NCBI RefSeq assembly: GCF_003855155.1 | Contig: NZ_CP034073.1 | Coordinates: 3,782,001-3,846,000, forward strand | DNA: 64,000 bases | Source: Shewanella psychromarinicola | GTDB taxonomy: Bacteria; Pseudomonadota; Gammaproteobacteria; Enterobacterales; Shewanellaceae | Direction of reading: 5' to 3' | Part shown: piece after piece, positions 1,371 through 8,277 of the stretch | Layout of the letters: every line of letters begins with the position of its first letter | Numbering within the stretch: position 1 is the first letter of the stretch | Program-made: the position numbers and the translations under genes | The notes under the pieces: generated by a model | Seen by the model: only the letters and a program-made list of their open reading frames with translations | Told to the model about the DNA's origin: nothing | Database searches by the model: none

Positions 1371-1387
1371 TTGGCCCAGCTATTGCT
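1371..1387 (+). promoter_or_regulatory. Sigma54 (-24/-12) promoter of the prx-pdo operon
   Basis: TTGGCCCAGCTATTGCT matches the sigma54 consensus TTGGCACRNNNNTTGCW at all fixed positions but one. The GG (1373-1374) and GC (1385-1386) dinucleotides have the required 12-bp spacing. Transcription would start near 1397, leaving a leader of about 65 nt. A sigma54 activator is encoded 5 kb downstream. Confidence 0.75.
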
Positions 1388-1461: not shown

Positions 1462-2103
1462 ATGACTGATTCTATTGTTTCTTTTCCACAATTAAACCGA
1501 CCCGCTCCGGCATTTAATACCAAGACCACACATGGCATGCGTTCACTCACTGACTATAAAGGCAAGTGGCTAGTATTGTTCTCTCATCCGGCTGATTTTA
1601 CGCCTGTTTGTACTACAGAGTTTATCGGTTTTGCCCAACGTGCAGAAGAATTTGCCCAGCTTAATACCGAATTATTAGGTTTATCCATCGACAGTATTCA
1701 TTCACACATCGCTTGGGTACGGAATATTGAAGAAAACTTCGGTGTTGAAATTACCTTCCCTATTATTTCCGACTTATCAATGGAAGTGGCTAAAGCCTAC
1801 GGCATGATCCAACCCGGTGCGAGTGATACCGCGGCCGTCCGCGCGACCTTCATTATTGATCCTGAGGGTATTTTACGTGCCATGGTGTATTACCCAATGA
1901 GTAATGGCCGCTCTATCGATGAATTTGTTCGATTAGTCAAAGCATTGCAAACCAGTGACGCCAATGGCGTTGCCACCCCAGAAAACTGGCAGCCTGGTGA
2001 TGACGTGATAGTCCCCCCACCAGCCACCACAGCAGAAGCCAAGGCCCGTTTAAGCCAAGGGTTTAAATACACAGATTGGTACTTTAGTAAAAAGTCGCTT
2101 TAA
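1462..2103 (+). CDS. 1-Cys peroxiredoxin (Prx6-like)
   Basis: A 213-residue AhpC/TSA-family peroxiredoxin. The peroxidatic Cys50 lies in the P-x-x-x-T-x-x-C motif (PADFTPVCTTEF). There is no second cysteine, so it is a 1-Cys enzyme of the Prx6 branch; the long C-terminal extension (GVATPENWQPGDDVI onward) is also typical of that branch. It reduces hydroperoxides in the cytosol through an external thiol. It is preceded by GGAG at 1451-1454 and starts the operon that continues with a persulfide dioxygenase, a TauE exporter and a rhodanese. In that company a role in reducing sulfane-sulfur species or persulfide-derived peroxides is plausible but inferred. Expression should depend on the sigma54 promoter at 1371. 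Confidence 0.92.
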   Translation: MTDSIVSFPQLNRPAPAFNTKTTHGMRSLTDYKGKWLVLFSHPADFTPVCTTEFIGFAQRAEEFAQLNTELLGLSIDSIHSHIAWVRNIEENFGVEITFPIISDLSMEVAKAYGMIQPGASDTAAVRATFIIDPEGILRAMVYYPMSNGRSIDEFVRLVKALQTSDANGVATPENWQPGDDVIVPPPATTAEAKARLSQGFKYTDWYFSKKSL

Positions 2104-2160
2104 GCCTTTACCAGCACAGGGGCGCGAGTCCTTGTGCATCATTTATATAGGAGGTTTGTG

Positions 2161-3030
2161 ATGAATTCGACGTTTAGTGTGCATGAGTTTTTAGATGAAG
2201 ACAGTGAAACATTTACTTATGTCGTAGCCGATAATGCGACCTCATATGCAGTGATTATTGACCCTGTTTTAGATTTTGATTATAAATCGGGCCGCACTGA
2301 TACCCGCAGTGTGCAACGTGTTTTACATTGGATTAACCGCCAGAAATTGACGGTTAAATGGATATTGGAAACCCACGCCCATGCAGACCATTTATCTGCC
2401 GCCAGTTTTCTGCGTGACAAAATAGCGGGCCAAATGGGTATTGGTGAACACATCACTCAAGTACAAGACACCTTTAAAACGATTTTTAATCTAGAGCCAG
2501 GTTTTTTGCCTAATGGCAACCAATTTGACCGGTTATTTAAACATAATGACCGCCTAAAAGTGGGTGATATGACGATTCGCATTATGCACACACCGGGCCA
2601 TACACCAGCCGATCTAGCATATATCGTTAATGAGCAAGCGGCTTTTGTTGGCGACACTATTTTTATGCCTGATGTGGGTACCGCCAGATGCGATTTCCCT
2701 GGTGGTGATGCCAATACCTTATACGATTCAATTCAGACATTATTCAGCCTTCCTGAAACCACCGATATTTATGTGTGTCATGACTACCCGACCGAGGGCC
2801 GTGACCACCAATTTAAAACCCAAGTAAGCCTACAAAAAAAACACAATATCCATGTTAACGACAGCATGAAAAAAGCAGATTTTGTGGCACTTCGTCAACA
2901 ACGAGACGCGACATTAACCATGCCAAGGCTGATATTGCCAGCGATTCAAGTCAACATTCGCGCAGGGCAACTACCAGCGGCTGAAGACAACGGCACTGTG
3001 TATTTAAAAATACCCATTAATATCCTTTAA
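2161..3030 (+). CDS. Persulfide dioxygenase-like MBL-fold hydrolase
   Basis: A 289-residue metallo-beta-lactamase-fold protein. It carries the metal-binding motif H72-A-H74-A-D76-H77, a later MHTPGHTP and VGDTIF, and a C-terminal CHDYP. This arrangement matches the ETHE1/Blh group, whose members oxidise glutathione persulfide to sulfite with a mononuclear iron. I place the start at the ATG at 2161 because AGGAGG lies at 2149-2154 with a 6-nt gap; an upstream GTG (2134) has no such site. It sits between the peroxiredoxin and TauE genes. A paralogue of identical length is encoded at 4299-5168. A general hydrolase role cannot be excluded from sequence alone. Confidence 0.85.
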   Translation: MNSTFSVHEFLDEDSETFTYVVADNATSYAVIIDPVLDFDYKSGRTDTRSVQRVLHWINRQKLTVKWILETHAHADHLSAASFLRDKIAGQMGIGEHITQVQDTFKTIFNLEPGFLPNGNQFDRLFKHNDRLKVGDMTIRIMHTPGHTPADLAYIVNEQAAFVGDTIFMPDVGTARCDFPGGDANTLYDSIQTLFSLPETTDIYVCHDYPTEGRDHQFKTQVSLQKKHNIHVNDSMKKADFVALRQQRDATLTMPRLILPAIQVNIRAGQLPAAEDNGTVYLKIPINIL

Positions 3031-3047: not shown

Positions 3048-3797
3048 ATGATACAAGCAATCATTGGCGCATTATTAATTGGTTTCGTGTTAAGTGTTTT
3101 AGGCTCTGGAGGCTCAATTCTTACGGTTCCGGTGTTGCTATACCTTATTGGTATGCAAGCCGAGTTAGCCATTGCTTCATCATTATGCATCGTAGGAGCG
3201 ATAAGTTTAATCAGTAGTATTGGTTTTATTAAGCAAAAAAAGGTCTCTTGGCCTCATGTATTTTTATTTGGTTTACCCGGCATGGCGGGTACTTATTTAG
3301 GTGCATGGACCAGCACCTTTGTCACCAGCGACATACAGCTAATGGTGTTTGTCATGCTAATGCTCATTGGCGCCGTCATGATGTGGCGTAATCAATCTAG
3401 CAGGTGTAAAGCGGGTGAACTAAATATCATTAAAATCCTCTCACAAGGTTTAGCTGTCGGTGTCGTGACCGGATTTGTTGGCGTTGGCGGTGGATTTTTA
3501 ATTGTCCCAGCACTGGTTTTGCTCGGTGGTATTGAAATGTGGCTGGCAATAGGCACCAGCTTGGTGATTATTGCCATGAATTCACTGGTGGGCTTTGTTA
3601 AATATTACAGCTTGCTGTCAAACAAAGGACTTGAATTTGATTGGTCGGTTATCGCCATCATGATTGCCGGCGGGCTTGTCGGCAGTATTGCAGGTCAATG
3701 GATAAGCCAATATTTACCCAAAGCCATTTTACAAAAAATATTTGCCGTCTTTTTAGTCATGATGGCGCTATTTATGTTATCAAAATCTATCATTTAA
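3048..3797 (+). CDS. TauE/SafE-family anion exporter
   Basis: A 249-residue integral inner-membrane protein with about eight hydrophobic segments. It has the internal duplication typical of TauE/SafE (DUF81) proteins: a glycine-rich LGSGGSILTVP near residue 20 repeated as VGVGGGFLIVPAL near residue 150. Family members export sulfite, sulfoacetate or related organosulfur anions. Lying 17 bp after a persulfide dioxygenase gene, whose product would be sulfite, it is a good candidate sulfite exporter. The same pairing occurs in BigR/Blh operons of other bacteria. Substrate is inferred from context. Confidence 0.88.
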   Translation: MIQAIIGALLIGFVLSVLGSGGSILTVPVLLYLIGMQAELAIASSLCIVGAISLISSIGFIKQKKVSWPHVFLFGLPGMAGTYLGAWTSTFVTSDIQLMVFVMLMLIGAVMMWRNQSSRCKAGELNIIKILSQGLAVGVVTGFVGVGGGFLIVPALVLLGGIEMWLAIGTSLVIIAMNSLVGFVKYYSLLSNKGLEFDWSVIAIMIAGGLVGSIAGQWISQYLPKAILQKIFAVFLVMMALFMLSKSII

Positions 3798-3812: not shown

Positions 3813-4217
3813 ATGAAAACAGCTCAAGAATACATAAGTGAAATCAAAGCGAATATTAGGGAAGTGAGTACTCATGAATTACATACCGCGATGAGTAAAC
3901 CAGATGTGGTGATCATTGATGTTCGTGAGCATGAAGAGTTTCTGACAGGTCACATAGAAGGTGCAATAAATTTTCCTCGTGGCGTATTAGAGATGAAAAT
4001 TCATGAACATCCTTTGGTGAGTCATCACTGTGAATGGGTATTAGCATTAACTGAGTTAGCTCAAAAAGACATATACCTTATTTGCCGTACGGGTGGTCGT
4101 TCAGCACTTGCCGCAGCATCATTACAGAATATGGGCTTTACCAAACCATTGTCTGTCGCTGGTGGCATGATGCAATGGCAACAAGATGAATTTCCGTTAG
4201 TGCCTCATAAGGTATAA
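3813..4217 (+). CDS. Rhodanese-domain sulfurtransferase
   Basis: A 134-residue single-domain rhodanese. It has the signature DVREHEEFLTGHIEGAINFPRG (residues 36-57) and the catalytic loop C91-RTGGR, in which Cys91 would carry the persulfide. It has no signal peptide, so it should act in the cytosol, moving sulfane sulfur to a thiol acceptor such as glutathione and thereby supplying the neighbouring dioxygenase. It is the last gene of the sigma54-controlled operon and follows tauE by 15 bp with a GAGG ribosome site. The next gene lies on the opposite strand. Confidence 0.9.
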   Translation: MKTAQEYISEIKANIREVSTHELHTAMSKPDVVIIDVREHEEFLTGHIEGAINFPRGVLEMKIHEHPLVSHHCEWVLALTELAQKDIYLICRTGGRSALAAASLQNMGFTKPLSVAGGMMQWQQDEFPLVPHKV

Positions 4218-4298: not shown

Positions 4299-5168
4299 TT
4301 ATGACAACTGGTTAAGCGGTATTTTAAGGTAAGCGTTACCCTTACGGTCTGCTGGTGGCATGTTACCTGCTCGAATATTAATTTGGATTGCCGCTAACAA
4401 TAGATGCGGTATATCAGAATCAATGTGGCGTTGTTGATGTCGCTGAACAAACTCAGCGAGGGTCACTTTACCGCCGACAACGCAGTTATACCTTTTCTGC
4501 GCAATCACTGATGTTTCAAATATATTATCTTGGCGTTTGTATCCAAGGGGATCATGCCCTATAAACACCCGAGTACAATTAGGTAACGCTAATATATTGT
4601 TAATTGAATGATACAAGGTGGTCGTGCTGCTATTGGGGAAATCAGTATTCACAGTACCCCATTCTGGCGTAGATAATGTGTCACCGACAAATATCACATC
4701 TTCAATGAGATAGCTCACACAAGCAGGTGTATGTCCGGGTGTATGCATAATGTGAATAGTTAAATGACCCAATTTAATGAGTTCTTTATCGGTAAACAGT
4801 TGATCAAACTGCTCGCCATTGCACTGAAAGCTCTCATCGAGATTTAGCAATCTTTTAACGGTGTGCTGGACTTGAGTAATGTGCTCACCAATCCCCGTTG
4901 TTCCCCCGCGTTTGGTCTTGATATAACACGCCGCAGACATATGATCGCAATGTGCATGAGTTTCTAAAATCCATTCAATTTCAAATCCATGCTTATCGAT
5001 ATGATCAATGATGTTATCGGCAAAACATGTACTTATAGTACCAGAGGCCATATCGAAGTCTAAAACGGGATCAATAATCGCACTTTGACGAGTAGCAAGA
5101 TCGGTCACCACATAGGTAATAGCATGACTAGTACGATGATAAAAAGGATCAATACGGATTTTACTCAT
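4299..5168 (-). CDS. Second persulfide dioxygenase-like MBL-fold protein
   Basis: A 289-residue paralogue of the protein at 2161-3030, with the metal motif H71-A-H73-C-D75-H76, GIGEHITQVQ, MHTPGHTP, VGDTLS and IGHDP. The alanine before the metal-binding Asp is replaced by Cys, and the late CHDY motif reads GHDP, so the two enzymes may differ in substrate or redox sensitivity. I choose the ATG at 5168 because GGGAG precedes it by nine bases; the longer frame begins in non-conserved sequence. It is transcribed toward the rhodanese gene and lies 267 bp behind the DUF3365 gene on the same strand. I found no sigma54 motif directly upstream, so it may share that gene's promoter. Confidence 0.82.
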   Translation of the reverse strand: MSKIRIDPFYHRTSHAITYVVTDLATRQSAIIDPVLDFDMASGTISTCFADNIIDHIDKHGFEIEWILETHAHCDHMSAACYIKTKRGGTTGIGEHITQVQHTVKRLLNLDESFQCNGEQFDQLFTDKELIKLGHLTIHIMHTPGHTPACVSYLIEDVIFVGDTLSTPEWGTVNTDFPNSSTTTLYHSINNILALPNCTRVFIGHDPLGYKRQDNIFETSVIAQKRYNCVVGGKVTLAEFVQRHQQRHIDSDIPHLLLAAIQINIRAGNMPPADRKGNAYLKIPLNQLS

Positions 5169-5340
5169 AACAATTAACTCCCAACAAAATACCCAATGCA
5201 TTTGTTAGATAAAGTCTCAGATCAATATTAGCAATAATGGTTAACATCATTTTGTAAATGACTGATAAGGAATCGTAAAGGCAGGATAATGTTAACGTAA
5301 ACCACCACCATAAACAGCCCATGGGTCGCTGTGCTGTTTG

Positions 5341-5430
5341 CTTTAGCACCTAGCAGCGAAGCGTCCTAGGCTCTTGCTATAAGCCGCGCAGCGTCCTCGC
5401 TTCTAGGTCTTTCGCTTATATTACTTCAGC
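5341..5430. repeat. GC-rich imperfect repeat between the cytochrome and MBL genes
   Basis: This stretch contains CCTAG...CTAGG ends around an AGCGAAGCGTC core (about 5349-5370), followed by a related CGCAGCGTCCTCGCTTCTAGG. It is more GC-rich than its surroundings and partly self-complementary. It could attenuate or terminate transcription from the DUF3365 gene; the structure is too irregular for a firm call. Confidence 0.35.
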
Positions 5431-5435
5431 TTTGA

Positions 5436-6086
5436 TTACGGCTTTGTTGTTGCTGTAACCGATGCGGCTTGATTATTGATAACCTTTTGTAATGAAAACG
5501 CACCGCGAATATCACCGAGGGCAAAGTTAACTGCTTTATCATTAGGATAGGTTTTGTTAATCAAAGTACTCAGCTCAGGATTAATATTACTACCATGACA
5601 ACCTAAGCATAATTGTTGCGCTGGTATCGCCTTCATATAACGAAACTGTGTTTTGCCATCTTTGACGATAAACTCACTCGCCACAATGGGTTTATCAGCA
5701 GCTTGCTGTCCTGAAGCATTAACACGTTCAAATTGCTGTAATTGTGTTAACTCCCAAGCATCGGGCGTATTGGCTGGATTACGCACTCGCAAACTGGTCC
5801 GGGTAAGTGTCCAGCCCTCTTTTGAGTTTTCTGCTGCAATTGCAGGTGCTACCGCTTGGCACACCGACACTGCGTTGGTTAATCCACCTTGCTTAATGGC
5901 TGTCTTTAAATGACCTTTCAGTGCTTGGCTAAATTCGGCAATTCGTTGATTGGCCTGTTGTTCAAGCACTTGCTGCTCGGTTAATGATTCAGCTTGTCCT
6001 ACCGTCGAGACGCTCATAAGCATGATTAAGCCGGCCATTTGGCTAGCCTTAATCAATGATTGTGTGTGTTTGTGTGTTAAGCGCAT
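5436..6086 (-). CDS. DUF3365 (Tll0287-like) c-type haem protein
   Basis: A 216-residue exported protein. Residues 1-32 form a signal peptide ending near GQAES, and a single c-type haem site C160-LG-C163-H164 lies in the C-terminal third. Around it are SVCQAVAPAIA and LRNPANTPDAWE-like segments, which are hallmarks of DUF3365 domains (PAS-like haem sensors or small cytochromes). It would act in the periplasm, perhaps as an electron carrier or sensor. It is divergent from the FisR-like gene, and the space between carries a sigma54 promoter (6187-6202) and two TGACAAATAT motifs. It is therefore probably a direct target of that regulator and linked to sulfur stress. Confidence 0.82.
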   Translation of the reverse strand: MRLTHKHTQSLIKASQMAGLIMLMSVSTVGQAESLTEQQVLEQQANQRIAEFSQALKGHLKTAIKQGGLTNAVSVCQAVAPAIAAENSKEGWTLTRTSLRVRNPANTPDAWELTQLQQFERVNASGQQAADKPIVASEFIVKDGKTQFRYMKAIPAQQLCLGCHGSNINPELSTLINKTYPNDKAVNFALGDIRGAFSLQKVINNQAASVTATTKP

Positions 6087-6186
6087 TATTGTTATTCCTC
6101 TATTTAAAATCGTTTAATCTCAATGAGTTTTAGGGTTATAAAAAACCTATGACCGAGTCCAATCACAAAACATATAGCAAGATCAA

Positions 6187-6202
6187 TACAAAGCTTGTGC
6201 CA
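6187..6202 (-). promoter_or_regulatory. Sigma54 promoter of the DUF3365 gene
   Basis: Read on the minus strand, TGGCACAAGCTTTGTA matches TGGCACRNNNNTTGCW except for T in place of C at -12. The -24 half is perfect and the spacing correct. It lies about 100 bp upstream of the DUF3365 start and about 90-130 bp from the TGACAAATAT motifs at 6288-6320, the usual enhancer geometry. Confidence 0.65.
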
Positions 6203-6287
6203 TATTACACCGACAAATTTAAAATATATAAAATCAGCCACTTAAAATTCATTGATATTTGCGAGAGGCACATGCTAGGTTATGAAC

Positions 6288-6333
6288 TGACAAATATGGC
6301 ATTGTAGTGACAAATATTGCGCTAATAATGTCA
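6288..6333. promoter_or_regulatory. Repeated putative FisR-like binding sites
   Basis: TGACAAATATGGC (6288-6300) and TGACAAATATTGC (6308-6320) are near-identical and start exactly 20 bp apart, placing them on the same helix face. A TGTCA follows at 6329-6333. The first matches the 14-bp repeat at 1231-1244 at 12 of 14 positions. The sites lie between the DUF3365 and regulator genes, so they could activate the former and autoregulate the latter. Confidence 0.55.
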
Positions 6334-6379
6334 CTTTAGAGATTAACTGATTAATGTGTACAGTAAGCGAGAGTGATAA

Positions 6380-7702
6380 ATGAGTAACACCACTGTTGTG
6401 CAATCAATGATAAACGCGATTGATAAACCGGCAATATTTATTACGCCAGATTATGTTATACATGCGGTTAATCAAGCCTATTTGGAAACGTATAATACAC
6501 AAGTCATATTAGGCCAAAGTAAATGCCATCAGATATCTCATCACAGTAATGAGCCTTGTGATAAACACGGTGAAGAGTGTCCTTTGCAACAATGCCAGAG
6601 TACCGCAAGGGCTGCCAATGCCGTGCATATTCATAGCACTGCACACGGTAAGTCATATTGCGATATTTTAATGAAACCCATTAAAGATAACAGTGGCAAG
6701 GTATTGGGATATCTGGAGGTTTTAGATGCCATTGATTATGCATCAACAGAGTCTAAAAAAGGCACCATGGTCGGTCAATCTGCGCCGTTTAAGCAAATGC
6801 TCAACAGAATTAACCGAGCATCTCAATCCAGTATTGCGGTGCTATTGCAAGGTGAAACCGGTGCAGGTAAAGAACTCGTCGCTAAAGCGGTGCATCAAGC
6901 CAGTAGCCGCAATGATAAACCTTTTGTGGTTATTGAATGTACCGGCCTGAGTGAAAACCTGTTCGAAAGTGAGTTATTTGGTTACGAGAAAGGAGCCTTT
7001 ACCGGGGCAACCACCAGTAAAAAAGGTCTGATTGAGATAGCCCACGGCGGCACGGTATTCTTTGATGAGATTGGCGATGTACCGATGAACATGCAAGTTA
7101 AACTGCTGAGGTTGCTAGAAACCCAATGTTATCGCGCCGTGGGTGGATTAAAACAAAAACGTTCCGACTTTCGATTAGTCAGCGCCAGCCATAAGAATTT
7201 ACTCGATTTGGTTGAAAAAGGTGAATTTAGACGCGATCTGTATTACCGCATTGCCGGATTTCCCATTTACTTACCCTCGTTGCGTGAGCGCCTTGATGAT
7301 ATTCCAGGACTCGTAAATCATTTTATAAAGTACTCTGAATACAAACATAAAAGGTTTTCGGCTAACGCATTAAATCTGCTCAGTCATTATGCATATCCAG
7401 GTAATATTCGCGAACTGAAAAATATTATTGAACAATCGGCACTGATTGCCAACGAAGATATTATCCACAGCAGTGATTTACCTGAAAGCGTTCAACCTAA
7501 CCACACATCGACAGATAACAAAAATACACTAAAAACGGCAACGGAACTCATGTCACTCGATGACGTGGAGTACGCATATCTTTCTCAGGTCTGTCAGCAA
7601 TTTCAAGGATCTCCAGCAGAATTAGCCATTAAGCTTAATATTAGTGTGCGGACCTTATATCGTAAATTACAGCGCTATGAGCTAAAGCTAACAGCGCTGT
7701 AA
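6380..7702 (+). CDS. FisR-like sigma54-dependent persulfide-responsive activator
   Basis: A 440-residue enhancer-binding protein. Residues 1-120 are a PAS-like sensory domain with C49, C60, C67, C72 and C94. The 11- and 7-residue gaps between C49, C60 and C67 equal those of C53, C64 and C71 of Cupriavidus FisR, which senses sulfane sulfur. Residues about 130-360 are the AAA+ domain: Walker A GETGAGKE (158-165), the sigma54-contact motif GAFTGA (205-210) and Walker B FFDE (227-230). The C-terminus (about 395-437) is a Fis-type helix-turn-helix. Its neighbours encode persulfide dioxygenases, a rhodanese and TauE, and two sigma54 promoters lie nearby. Function is inferred from cysteine spacing and context. 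Confidence 0.85.
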
Positions 7703-7728: not shown

Positions 7729-8277
7729 TTAATGTTGATGTATTAGTGAATGCTTTTTATTGCAACACGTTTTCATTGTTGCGGTTGCTGTGCCCATTTC
7801 TGATCCGCAGCAACGTTTCTTTGTCGCCATTTCTGATCCACTGCAATGACCATCGTGACTGCCCGCTTCTCCGTCAGCATGATTATGATCACAACAACCA
7901 CCATTCGCTTGTTTAGCAATATGCTTAGATGAAGGGCGTCCCTGACTTGCCTCGGTATACTCCTCACAGTCAGCTAAATTAGCACCGGCAAGATCGTCTA
8001 TTGCTGTACGACCATTTTTAGCATGAAAAACACTCAGTTGCCGACTTAATAATTTAGCTAATAGTTGTTGGCCAATGTTACGTACGATCACGCGATTAGC
8101 GCCATGTGCCAGTATCAAACTGACTAATTGTTGTTTACCCTCACATCCATCTGTTAGTGCAGGATTGGCAAAACGCCCTTTCACTTGACCTTGATCGTCA
8201 ATAAAGAGCACCTCATCAGCTTTGCTAAAATGGCTGGAAATATGTTCGTCTTTCATTGGTATGGCGGTAATCATCAT
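7729..8277 (-). CDS. NifX/NafY-like protein with Cys/His-rich tail
   Basis: A 182-residue protein. Residues 1-105 resemble the dinitrogenase iron-molybdenum cofactor (NifX/NafY/NifB-C) fold: an early MITAIPM strand, HFSKADEVLFID, then a C-terminal KNGRTAIDDL. Residues 125-182 are an unusual tail with CC pairs at 128-129, 156-157 and 171-172, C145 and many histidines, suggesting metal or iron-sulfur binding. There are no nitrogenase genes nearby, so a role in FeMo-cofactor assembly is unlikely; such stand-alone proteins occur widely in non-fixers with unknown function. It converges with the FisR-like gene, 26 bp apart. GAGGAGA precedes two adjacent ATGs (8277 and 8274), either of which may be used. 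Confidence 0.72.
   Translation of the reverse strand: MMITAIPMKDEHISSHFSKADEVLFIDDQGQVKGRFANPALTDGCEGKQQLVSLILAHGANRVIVRNIGQQLLAKLLSRQLSVFHAKNGRTAIDDLAGANLADCEEYTEASQGRPSSKHIAKQANGGCCDHNHADGEAGSHDGHCSGSEMATKKRCCGSEMGTATATMKTCCNKKHSLIHQH

Follow-up and report, generated by a model that had tools for sequence, protein, structure and literature searches.

This locus raises the question of whether its sigma54-dependent activator is a reactive-sulfur sensor of the FisR type and, if so, what such a sensor would respond to in a genome in which our searches found no sulfide-quinone reductase (SQR) of either type looked for. We analysed the gene within a 64-kb stretch of DNA, referred to as the window, together with its relatives in other genomes. 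Judged by its sequence, the window regulator is a member of the FisR family, as every testable feature of such a regulator was found in it. The gene and the parts of its product are as follows.

6380–7702, plus strand: FisR-type sigma54-dependent activator, 440 aa (PAS, AAA+, Fis-type helix-turn-helix)
6416–6721, plus strand: PAS_4 sensor domain, residues 13–114 (PF08448, 26.5 bits, cut-off 23.1)
6524–6580, plus strand: Cys49 (6524–6526), Cys60 (6557–6559) and Cys67 (6578–6580), aligned with FisR C53/C64/C71
6593–6661, plus strand: branch-specific Cys72 (6593–6595) and Cys94 (6659–6661)
6767–7267, plus strand: sigma54 interaction AAA+ domain, residues 130–296 (PF00158, 214.8 bits; GAFTGA)
7556–7678, plus strand: Fis-type helix-turn-helix, residues 393–433 (PF02954, 30 bits, cut-off 22)

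The protein has the FisR architecture of a sensor domain, an AAA+ domain with the GAFTGA motif (first residue 205) and a Fis-type helix-turn-helix, and its cysteines are residues 49, 60, 67, 72, 94, 187, 250 and 405. A sequence search of solved structures with the sensor domain gave no match, and the closest named relatives of the regulator among the matches listed are from Shewanella. The sequence-only reading of this DNA had proposed that three N-terminal cysteines reproduce the spacing of the FisR sensing residues. The gaps of 11 and 7 residues between Cys49, Cys60 and Cys67 are indeed exact in the ORF at 6380–7702, and in a BLASTP alignment with FisR of Cupriavidus pinatubonensis (43% identity, 190 of 438 columns) the three stand opposite C53, C64 and C71; the misalignment named beforehand as the outcome that would speak against the proposal did not occur. 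The protein compared here is that of strain HN-2, the strain studied in the literature being JMP134, and its N-terminal cysteines are residues 53, 64 and 71 when counted from the ATG of MDRKAT. As this count and the alignment agree, the numbering C53/C64/C71, which the sequence-only reading gave for what we take to be the sensing residues of Cupriavidus FisR, holds. Cys72 and Cys94, which had been listed as two extra cysteines, are real further N-terminal cysteines.

If five cysteines were placed at random in 120 residues, an 11/7 triple would arise with a probability of 0.0036, and the conservation of the trio is stronger evidence than this figure. Among the matches listed (8000 scored), C-x10-C-x6-C lies within the first 130 residues of 120 of 120 homologues. 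We further aligned 164 proteins from fetched loci, comprising 13 from Shewanella, 59 from Alteromonadaceae, three from other Alteromonadales, eight Shewanella paralogues and 81 of the Cupriavidus type; the labels Shewanella (the window's own genus) and Alteromonadaceae (the family of genome G292) are deduced from named homologues. The C49/C60/C67 register holds in this alignment and the trio is present in 164 of 164 proteins, although conservation in the Cupriavidus-type set is biased upward because that set was retrieved partly with a pattern spanning C60 and C67. Position 94 is a cysteine in all 75 Alteromonadales-type proteins and in none of the 89 others (the Cupriavidus-type and paralogue proteins), where it is V or I, and position 72 is a cysteine in 67 of the 75 (five Ser, three Ala) and again in 0 of 89. 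This distribution indicates that the extra cysteines mark the Alteromonadales branch and are not accidents. A search at E 1e-90 found the regulator itself in 13 of the genus's 129 genomes, leaving 116 without it at that cut-off; it was present in 59 of 295 genomes of the Alteromonadaceae sample at E 1e-120, and in 11 of 295 genomes in an even sample of the order.

An invariant trio could also be structural. The nearly invariant pattern CxxxSH...PC......CP, with His83 and His85, might bind a metal such as zinc, in which case the cysteines would hold the PAS domain together and would not be a redox sensor. The tetrasulfide cross-link formed in C. pinatubonensis FisR, as described in PMC8469610, argues against such a metal site, which we regard as very unlikely. 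By analogy with the C. pinatubonensis protein, from which a sulfane-sulfur response of the window regulator would be carried over, reactive-sulfur sensing by the cysteine trio is very probable.

To place the regulator we built a tree of 77 rows, namely the 13 Shewanella proteins, 23 of the 59 from Alteromonadaceae, the three others, the eight paralogues, 22 of the 81 of the Cupriavidus type, and eight other sigma54 activators of this genome as outgroups. The 69 FisR-type rows, among which the FisR of Acinetobacter baumannii is not included, fall on one branch with support of 100/100. Support is 98/97 for the branch of the window regulator and 100/99 for the Cupriavidus-type group; it is lower (87/74) where the paralogues attach to the window's branch. 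The tree program warned of long outgroup branches. Two of the outgroup activators are true NorR proteins (NCBIfam 716 and 766 bits, cut-off 476) and lie outside the FisR branch. NorR identity was rejected for the window regulator both on this ground and by its score of 267.7 bits against the same cut-off, with a match only over residues 122–436. A closer match to NorR, the second outcome that had been named as telling against FisR, was thus not found.

The regulator had also been said to sit inside a persulfide-oxidation cluster. This is borne out by two genes for persulfide dioxygenase-like (PDO) proteins and by those for TauE, a rhodanese and a peroxiredoxin, though there is no SQR gene. Upstream of the regulator, the window contains the following.

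1462–2103, plus strand: peroxiredoxin (AhpC-TSA / 1-cysPrx_C; PRK13189, over cut-off)
2134–3030, plus strand: persulfide dioxygenase-like protein PDO1, MBL fold (Blh model, 368 bits)
3048–3797, plus strand: TauE/SafE sulfite exporter
3813–4217, plus strand: rhodanese
4299–5201, minus strand: persulfide dioxygenase-like protein PDO2, 45% to PDO1
5436–6086, minus strand: stand-alone c-haem protein (Tll0287-like / sCache_heme) with a signal-peptide-like start (PF11845, 91 bits; CLGCH)
6087–6186, minus strand: leader, where 8 of 13 Shewanella loci have an SQR gene; in the window, no SQR and no readable scar

The PDO1 score is below the cut-off, which was set for a two-domain protein. The listed start of PDO1 is GTG, and the true start is perhaps nine codons later; the protein is 52% identical to the PDO adjoining the FisR of Cupriavidus metallidurans. 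Linkage to PDO genes, a FisR feature, is present here, as PDO2 and PDO1 lie at most 3.4 kb upstream of the regulator. Linkage to SQR is absent from the window and present in 8 of 13 Shewanella loci, which does not disqualify the window protein as FisR, since this trait belongs to the regulon and not to the regulator. A convergent gene for a NifX/dinitrogenase-cofactor-like protein with a Cys/His-rich tail (7729–8277, minus strand) follows the regulator and is kept beside it in L105 and L106.

The Shewanella loci bear on the absence of SQR. In eight of the 13, SQR is the first divergent gene, 240–266 bp away, and in the other five this place is taken by the haem gene. Whole-genome searches of the 13 genomes found SQR in those eight and in none of the other five, the window's included, all of which are listed as 100% complete; in the window genome, a Cupriavidus-type SQR query yielded nothing beyond a partial hit of 28 bits. 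The assignment of the SQR family is secure, as the Alteromonadaceae SQR matches solved sulfide-quinone reductases (3sz0 and others) at 6e-159. Between the promoter and the haem gene of L105 and L168, the leader retains a reading frame for the C-terminal 25 residues of SQR that ends in a stop codon; this coding scar indicates that SQR was deleted there. The leaders of the window, L165 and L106 hold no readable scar, and for these we infer loss from position; loss is the simplest explanation of the absence of SQR in the window. The SQR state requires four changes on the regulator tree. By sequence and length, the SQR-less leaders are of three kinds (window and L165; L105 and L168; L106, whose length is uncertain as its match starts inside the haem gene), which suggests about three loss events.

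Genes of sulfur respiration lie on the far side of the cluster. A TtrR-like regulator stands at the window start (194–790; 194 bits, below the cut-off of 290) and is the likely partner of a TtrS-like kinase at or before the window edge (363 bits, cut-off 750). A thiosulfate-reductase type operon encoding PhsA, an Fe-S subunit and an NrfD-like subunit (L260 7588–13516) begins about 2 kb upstream of the window; its large subunit scores 1364 bits (NCBIfam, cut-off 694) and its nearest solved structure is the thiosulfate reductase 2vpw. The stretches of the 12 other Shewanella loci, not all of which reach far enough to show these genes, contain the TtrSR-like pair in two cases (L165 and L167) and phsA in one (L165). 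This neighbourhood is not general among Shewanella loci.

Relatives outside the genus show a different set of partners. Among the 59 Alteromonadaceae loci, cydA lies within 8.5 kb of the regulator in 45 and the haem-protein gene in 34, with SQR present in 27 and PDO in 21. At least one of SQR, PDO, TauE, DUF442, cydA and the haem gene is near in 57 of 59, the exceptions being L185, where the contig ends beside the gene, and L189, but a strictly sulfur gene (SQR, PDO, TauE or DUF442) is near in only 31. The nearest divergent gene of this set at most 700 bp upstream is SQR in 24 loci and cydA in 16, with the haem gene in this place in 10 and DUF442 in a single locus; in 40 of 59 loci the regulator stands directly opposite SQR or cytochrome bd genes. 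Cupriavidus-type loci have PDO within 8.5 kb in 76 of 81, SQR in 70 and cydA in 16. The stand-alone haem gene is also near the regulator in 12 of 13 Shewanella loci. In 19 of the 59 Alteromonadaceae loci, a short membrane protein resembling YgaP (PF11127) is encoded at most 8.5 kb away; its gene often comes after the regulator and converges on it, as in L108 (10518–10739) and L109 (8627–8842). The SQR gene of L170 (G349) and the cydA gene of L111 (G173) are each read in two frames, through a frameshift or an assembly error.

The occurrence of cydA near 45 of 59 Alteromonadaceae and 16 of 81 Cupriavidus-type regulators, together with a haem neighbour whose family has NO-binding members (PMC12889525, a preprint), would also fit an activator of FisR fold whose true signal is respiratory poisoning by NO, cyanide or loss of electron flow, with cytochrome bd as the core target and the sulfur genes as only part of the response. 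The invariance of the cysteine trio and the SQR or PDO gene near most Cupriavidus-type loci stand against this. Moreover, the window locus has no cyd genes, a cydC query giving only a weak ABC-transporter match, and the stand-alone haem protein tested in that preprint binds NO only weakly (PMC12889525), which speaks against an NO role for the haem neighbour. Cytochrome bd is refractory to H2S according to PMC7315123, and its pairing with the regulator fits a sulfide response. In A. baumannii, sulfide induces cydAB (PMC7315123), and this agrees with the sulfur-circuit and the respiratory-poison readings alike. On balance, we consider respiratory poisoning quite improbable as the signal and prefer reactive sulfur. 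The recurrent pairing with cytochrome bd suggests that many FisR circuits may couple sulfur removal to a sulfide-resistant oxidase.

If the regulator is a FisR that acts on its neighbours, sigma54 promoters and a common operator are expected before them. The candidate sites are listed below.

1231–1244: operator TGTCATATTTGACA before the peroxiredoxin operon
1372–1387, plus strand: sigma54-type promoter TGGCCCAGCTATTGCT, 74 bp before the peroxiredoxin start codon
6187–6202, minus strand: sigma54-type promoter TGGCACAAGCTTTGTA, 100 bp before the start codon of the divergent haem protein
6288–6301: operator TGACAAATATGGCA (TGNCA-N4-TGNCA)
6308–6333: further conserved TGACA / TGTCA half-sites

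A sigma54 promoter before the target operon, a feature of FisR systems, is thus predicted, and rpoN is present in the genome. All 13 Shewanella loci contain the TGGCACAAGCTTTGTA block, altered in no more than one or two letters; it precedes SQR where SQR exists and the haem gene, the first gene behind it in the window, where SQR is absent. The -12 element of this divergent promoter at 6187–6202 is GT against the consensus GC. At the peroxiredoxin promoter, 10 of 11 Shewanella loci, among them the window, score at least 20, and L170 has lost the GG. We examined the 64 divergent regions that have a recognised neighbour at most 700 bp away. A sigma54-like site in the correct direction occurs in 57 of them; only two have one on the other strand, and shuffled sequences gave a mean of 3.3 and a maximum of 9. 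The score is a weighting of our own, devised with the two window sites already in view; other genomes therefore provide an independent test and the window sites do not. Across the whole window, sites with at most two mismatches number 45 against 41.8 expected by chance, and it is the place and conservation of sigma54-like sites that count, not their frequency in the window.

We read the operator motif off the Shewanella set and then tested it elsewhere. All 13 Shewanella regions at the regulator contain TGNCA-N4-TGNCA, as do 44 of 59 from Alteromonadaceae and all 8 of the paralogue, against means of 0.1 to 0.4 matches in total for shuffled sequences. Any other spacing from 0 to 12 is present in at most 8 of the 59 Alteromonadaceae regions. 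Some Shewanella regions have spacings 5 and 6 as well (6 and 7 of 13), and every paralogue region has both spacing 4 and spacing 7 (8 of 8 each). In the Cupriavidus-type regions, spacings 4, 5, 6 and 7 occur in 41, 40, 48 and 41 of 80; as these TGGCA/TGCCA repeats show no preference for 4, the operator differs there. The window holds eight TGNCA-N4-TGNCA sites, and the stricter form TGNCATWTWTGWCA gives exactly two without mismatch, at 1231–1244 and 6288–6301. As far as such predictions go, each of the two neighbouring operons is preceded by a conserved sigma54 promoter and by the same operator motif.

Does the regulon extend further? A genome search with the operator pattern TGNCAWWWWTGNCA gave 41 sites against seven for a reversed control, and three of these are the two window promoters and that of the paralogue. 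We checked 10 of the other 38: nine lie inside predicted ORFs (one of them a doubtful ORF of 68 aa) and one, L257, is intergenic. A sigma54-like site with a score of 19–22 occurs within 350 bp, on either strand, at five of the ten, the strongest being at L255, about 160 bp before the operator site. That half of these places have one means that a single sigma54-like site proves little. From the outcome of this search we claim only a local regulon.

The paralogue is the second FisR-type regulator of the genome (about G000:C1:95,750–97,044). It has the trio, is without C72 and C94, and is nearer to Cupriavidus FisR than the window regulator is (47% to C. pinatubonensis FisR against 43%). The gene (L014 7752–9044, plus strand) faces one for a choice-of-anchor O surface protein (4399–7503, minus strand; the pair at G000:C1 about 92,400–97,050), which encodes 1035 aa and scores 454 bits (cut-off 125). 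In all eight Shewanella genomes with the paralogue, the two genes are separated by a region that carries a strong, conserved sigma54-like site as well as a TGTCA-N4-TGACA operator. A literature search for choice-of-anchor O found no paper.

With its trio, its greater identity to FisR and the same type of operator in all eight upstream regions, the paralogue might be the functional sulfane-sulfur sensor, the window protein having diverged to another cue by way of C72 and C94. However, in none of the eight genomes did the stretches fetched around the paralogue contain any of our sulfur query genes, and it faces a surface-protein gene with its own sigma54-like promoter, whereas the sulfur neighbourhood stays with the window gene. 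Of the 13 genomes with the window gene, eight also carry the paralogue and five lack it at the cut-off used. We consider such an exchange of roles unlikely, and take the window regulator as the sulfane-sulfur sensor in what follows.

Taken together, the promoter, operator and gene-neighbourhood evidence agree with the sulfane-sulfur-responsive sigma54 circuit put forward in the sequence-only reading and lend it support, the response itself being argued by analogy. To FisR-type activation, through the cysteine trio, of two sigma54 operons with TGNCA-N4-TGNCA operators by a signal that SQR does not make, we assign a probability of about 0.83. The family, the cysteine register, the promoter- and operator-like sites, the gene order and the failure to find SQR are its sequence-derived parts. 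Under this model, cytoplasmic sulfane sulfur (polysulfide or persulfide) would modify C49/C60/C67 of the PAS domain, probably joining them by di- or polysulfide cross-links of the kind that C. pinatubonensis FisR is reported to form. Cross-linking would release the AAA+ domain to open the sigma54 promoters, with the helix-turn-helix bound to the operators. The regulator would drive one operon of peroxiredoxin, PDO1, tauE and rhodanese genes from 1372–1387 and a second, divergent one of haem-protein and PDO2 genes from 6187–6202. Together, the dioxygenases, exporter, rhodanese, peroxiredoxin and haem protein might convert persulfide sulfur to sulfite, which would be exported. As SQR is missing in this lineage, the signal would most likely stem from sulfur respiration (the phsA-type operon) or from outside, and not from SQR-made polysulfide. 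We infer the persulfide chemistry, the direction of control as activation, the opening of the promoters and the origin of the signal.

A bolder and doubtful extension, which we offer tentatively, is that the five-cysteine Alteromonadales FisR has been uncoupled from sulfide oxidation. SQR would have been deleted behind its promoter in several Shewanella lineages, and the regulator would sense sulfane sulfur from the cell's own thiosulfate or polysulfide respiration and fire the dioxygenases when oxygen returns. The sister regulator with the same operator would have been redirected to a surface-anchored protein, and C94 with C72 would tune the sensor to that source.

These observations bear on how general the cysteine mechanism is. 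In the literature we found, FisR experiments come from two bacteria, and the A. baumannii protein reportedly lacks the cysteines, which puts that generality at issue. The trio is invariant across the family studied here, and the predicted operator is open to a simple DNA-binding test. Shewanella relatives with and without SQR are a natural experiment on whether FisR needs SQR-made polysulfide.

Of the known systems, C. pinatubonensis FisR, said to be the subject of Li et al. 2017 (Mol Microbiol), is the one with which the window regulator shares its full-length architecture, three cysteines in register, a nearby PDO gene and sigma54-type regulation of neighbouring genes. It is without the N-terminal C72 and C94, and unlike in its system no SQR was found in the window genome. 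The window operator is the AT-rich TGNCA-N4-TGNCA, whereas the Cupriavidus-type group has TGGCA/TGCCA repeats at several spacings, and the predicted regulated set of the window adds the haem protein and a second PDO. NorR is likewise a sigma54 AAA+ activator, but it has a different sensor domain of its own without the trio, and its similarity to the window regulator is confined to the AAA+/C-terminal part. The persulfide-sensing repressors SqrR/BigR and CstR, with ArsR and CsoR folds, are not sigma54 activators. They likewise control PDO, SQR or TauE genes via cysteine chemistry, as PMC7315123 describes. According to the same paper, A. baumannii FisR is a sigma54 activator beside PDO, SQR and TauE genes and is required for their induction by sulfide, and it works without the sensing cysteines, all three of which the window protein has (PMC7315123); the trio is therefore not the only way to sense. 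Compared to the FisR systems considered here, the one predicted is new in its extra cysteines, its operator, its missing SQR, the frequent pairing with cytochrome bd among its relatives and a second regulator with a different neighbour.
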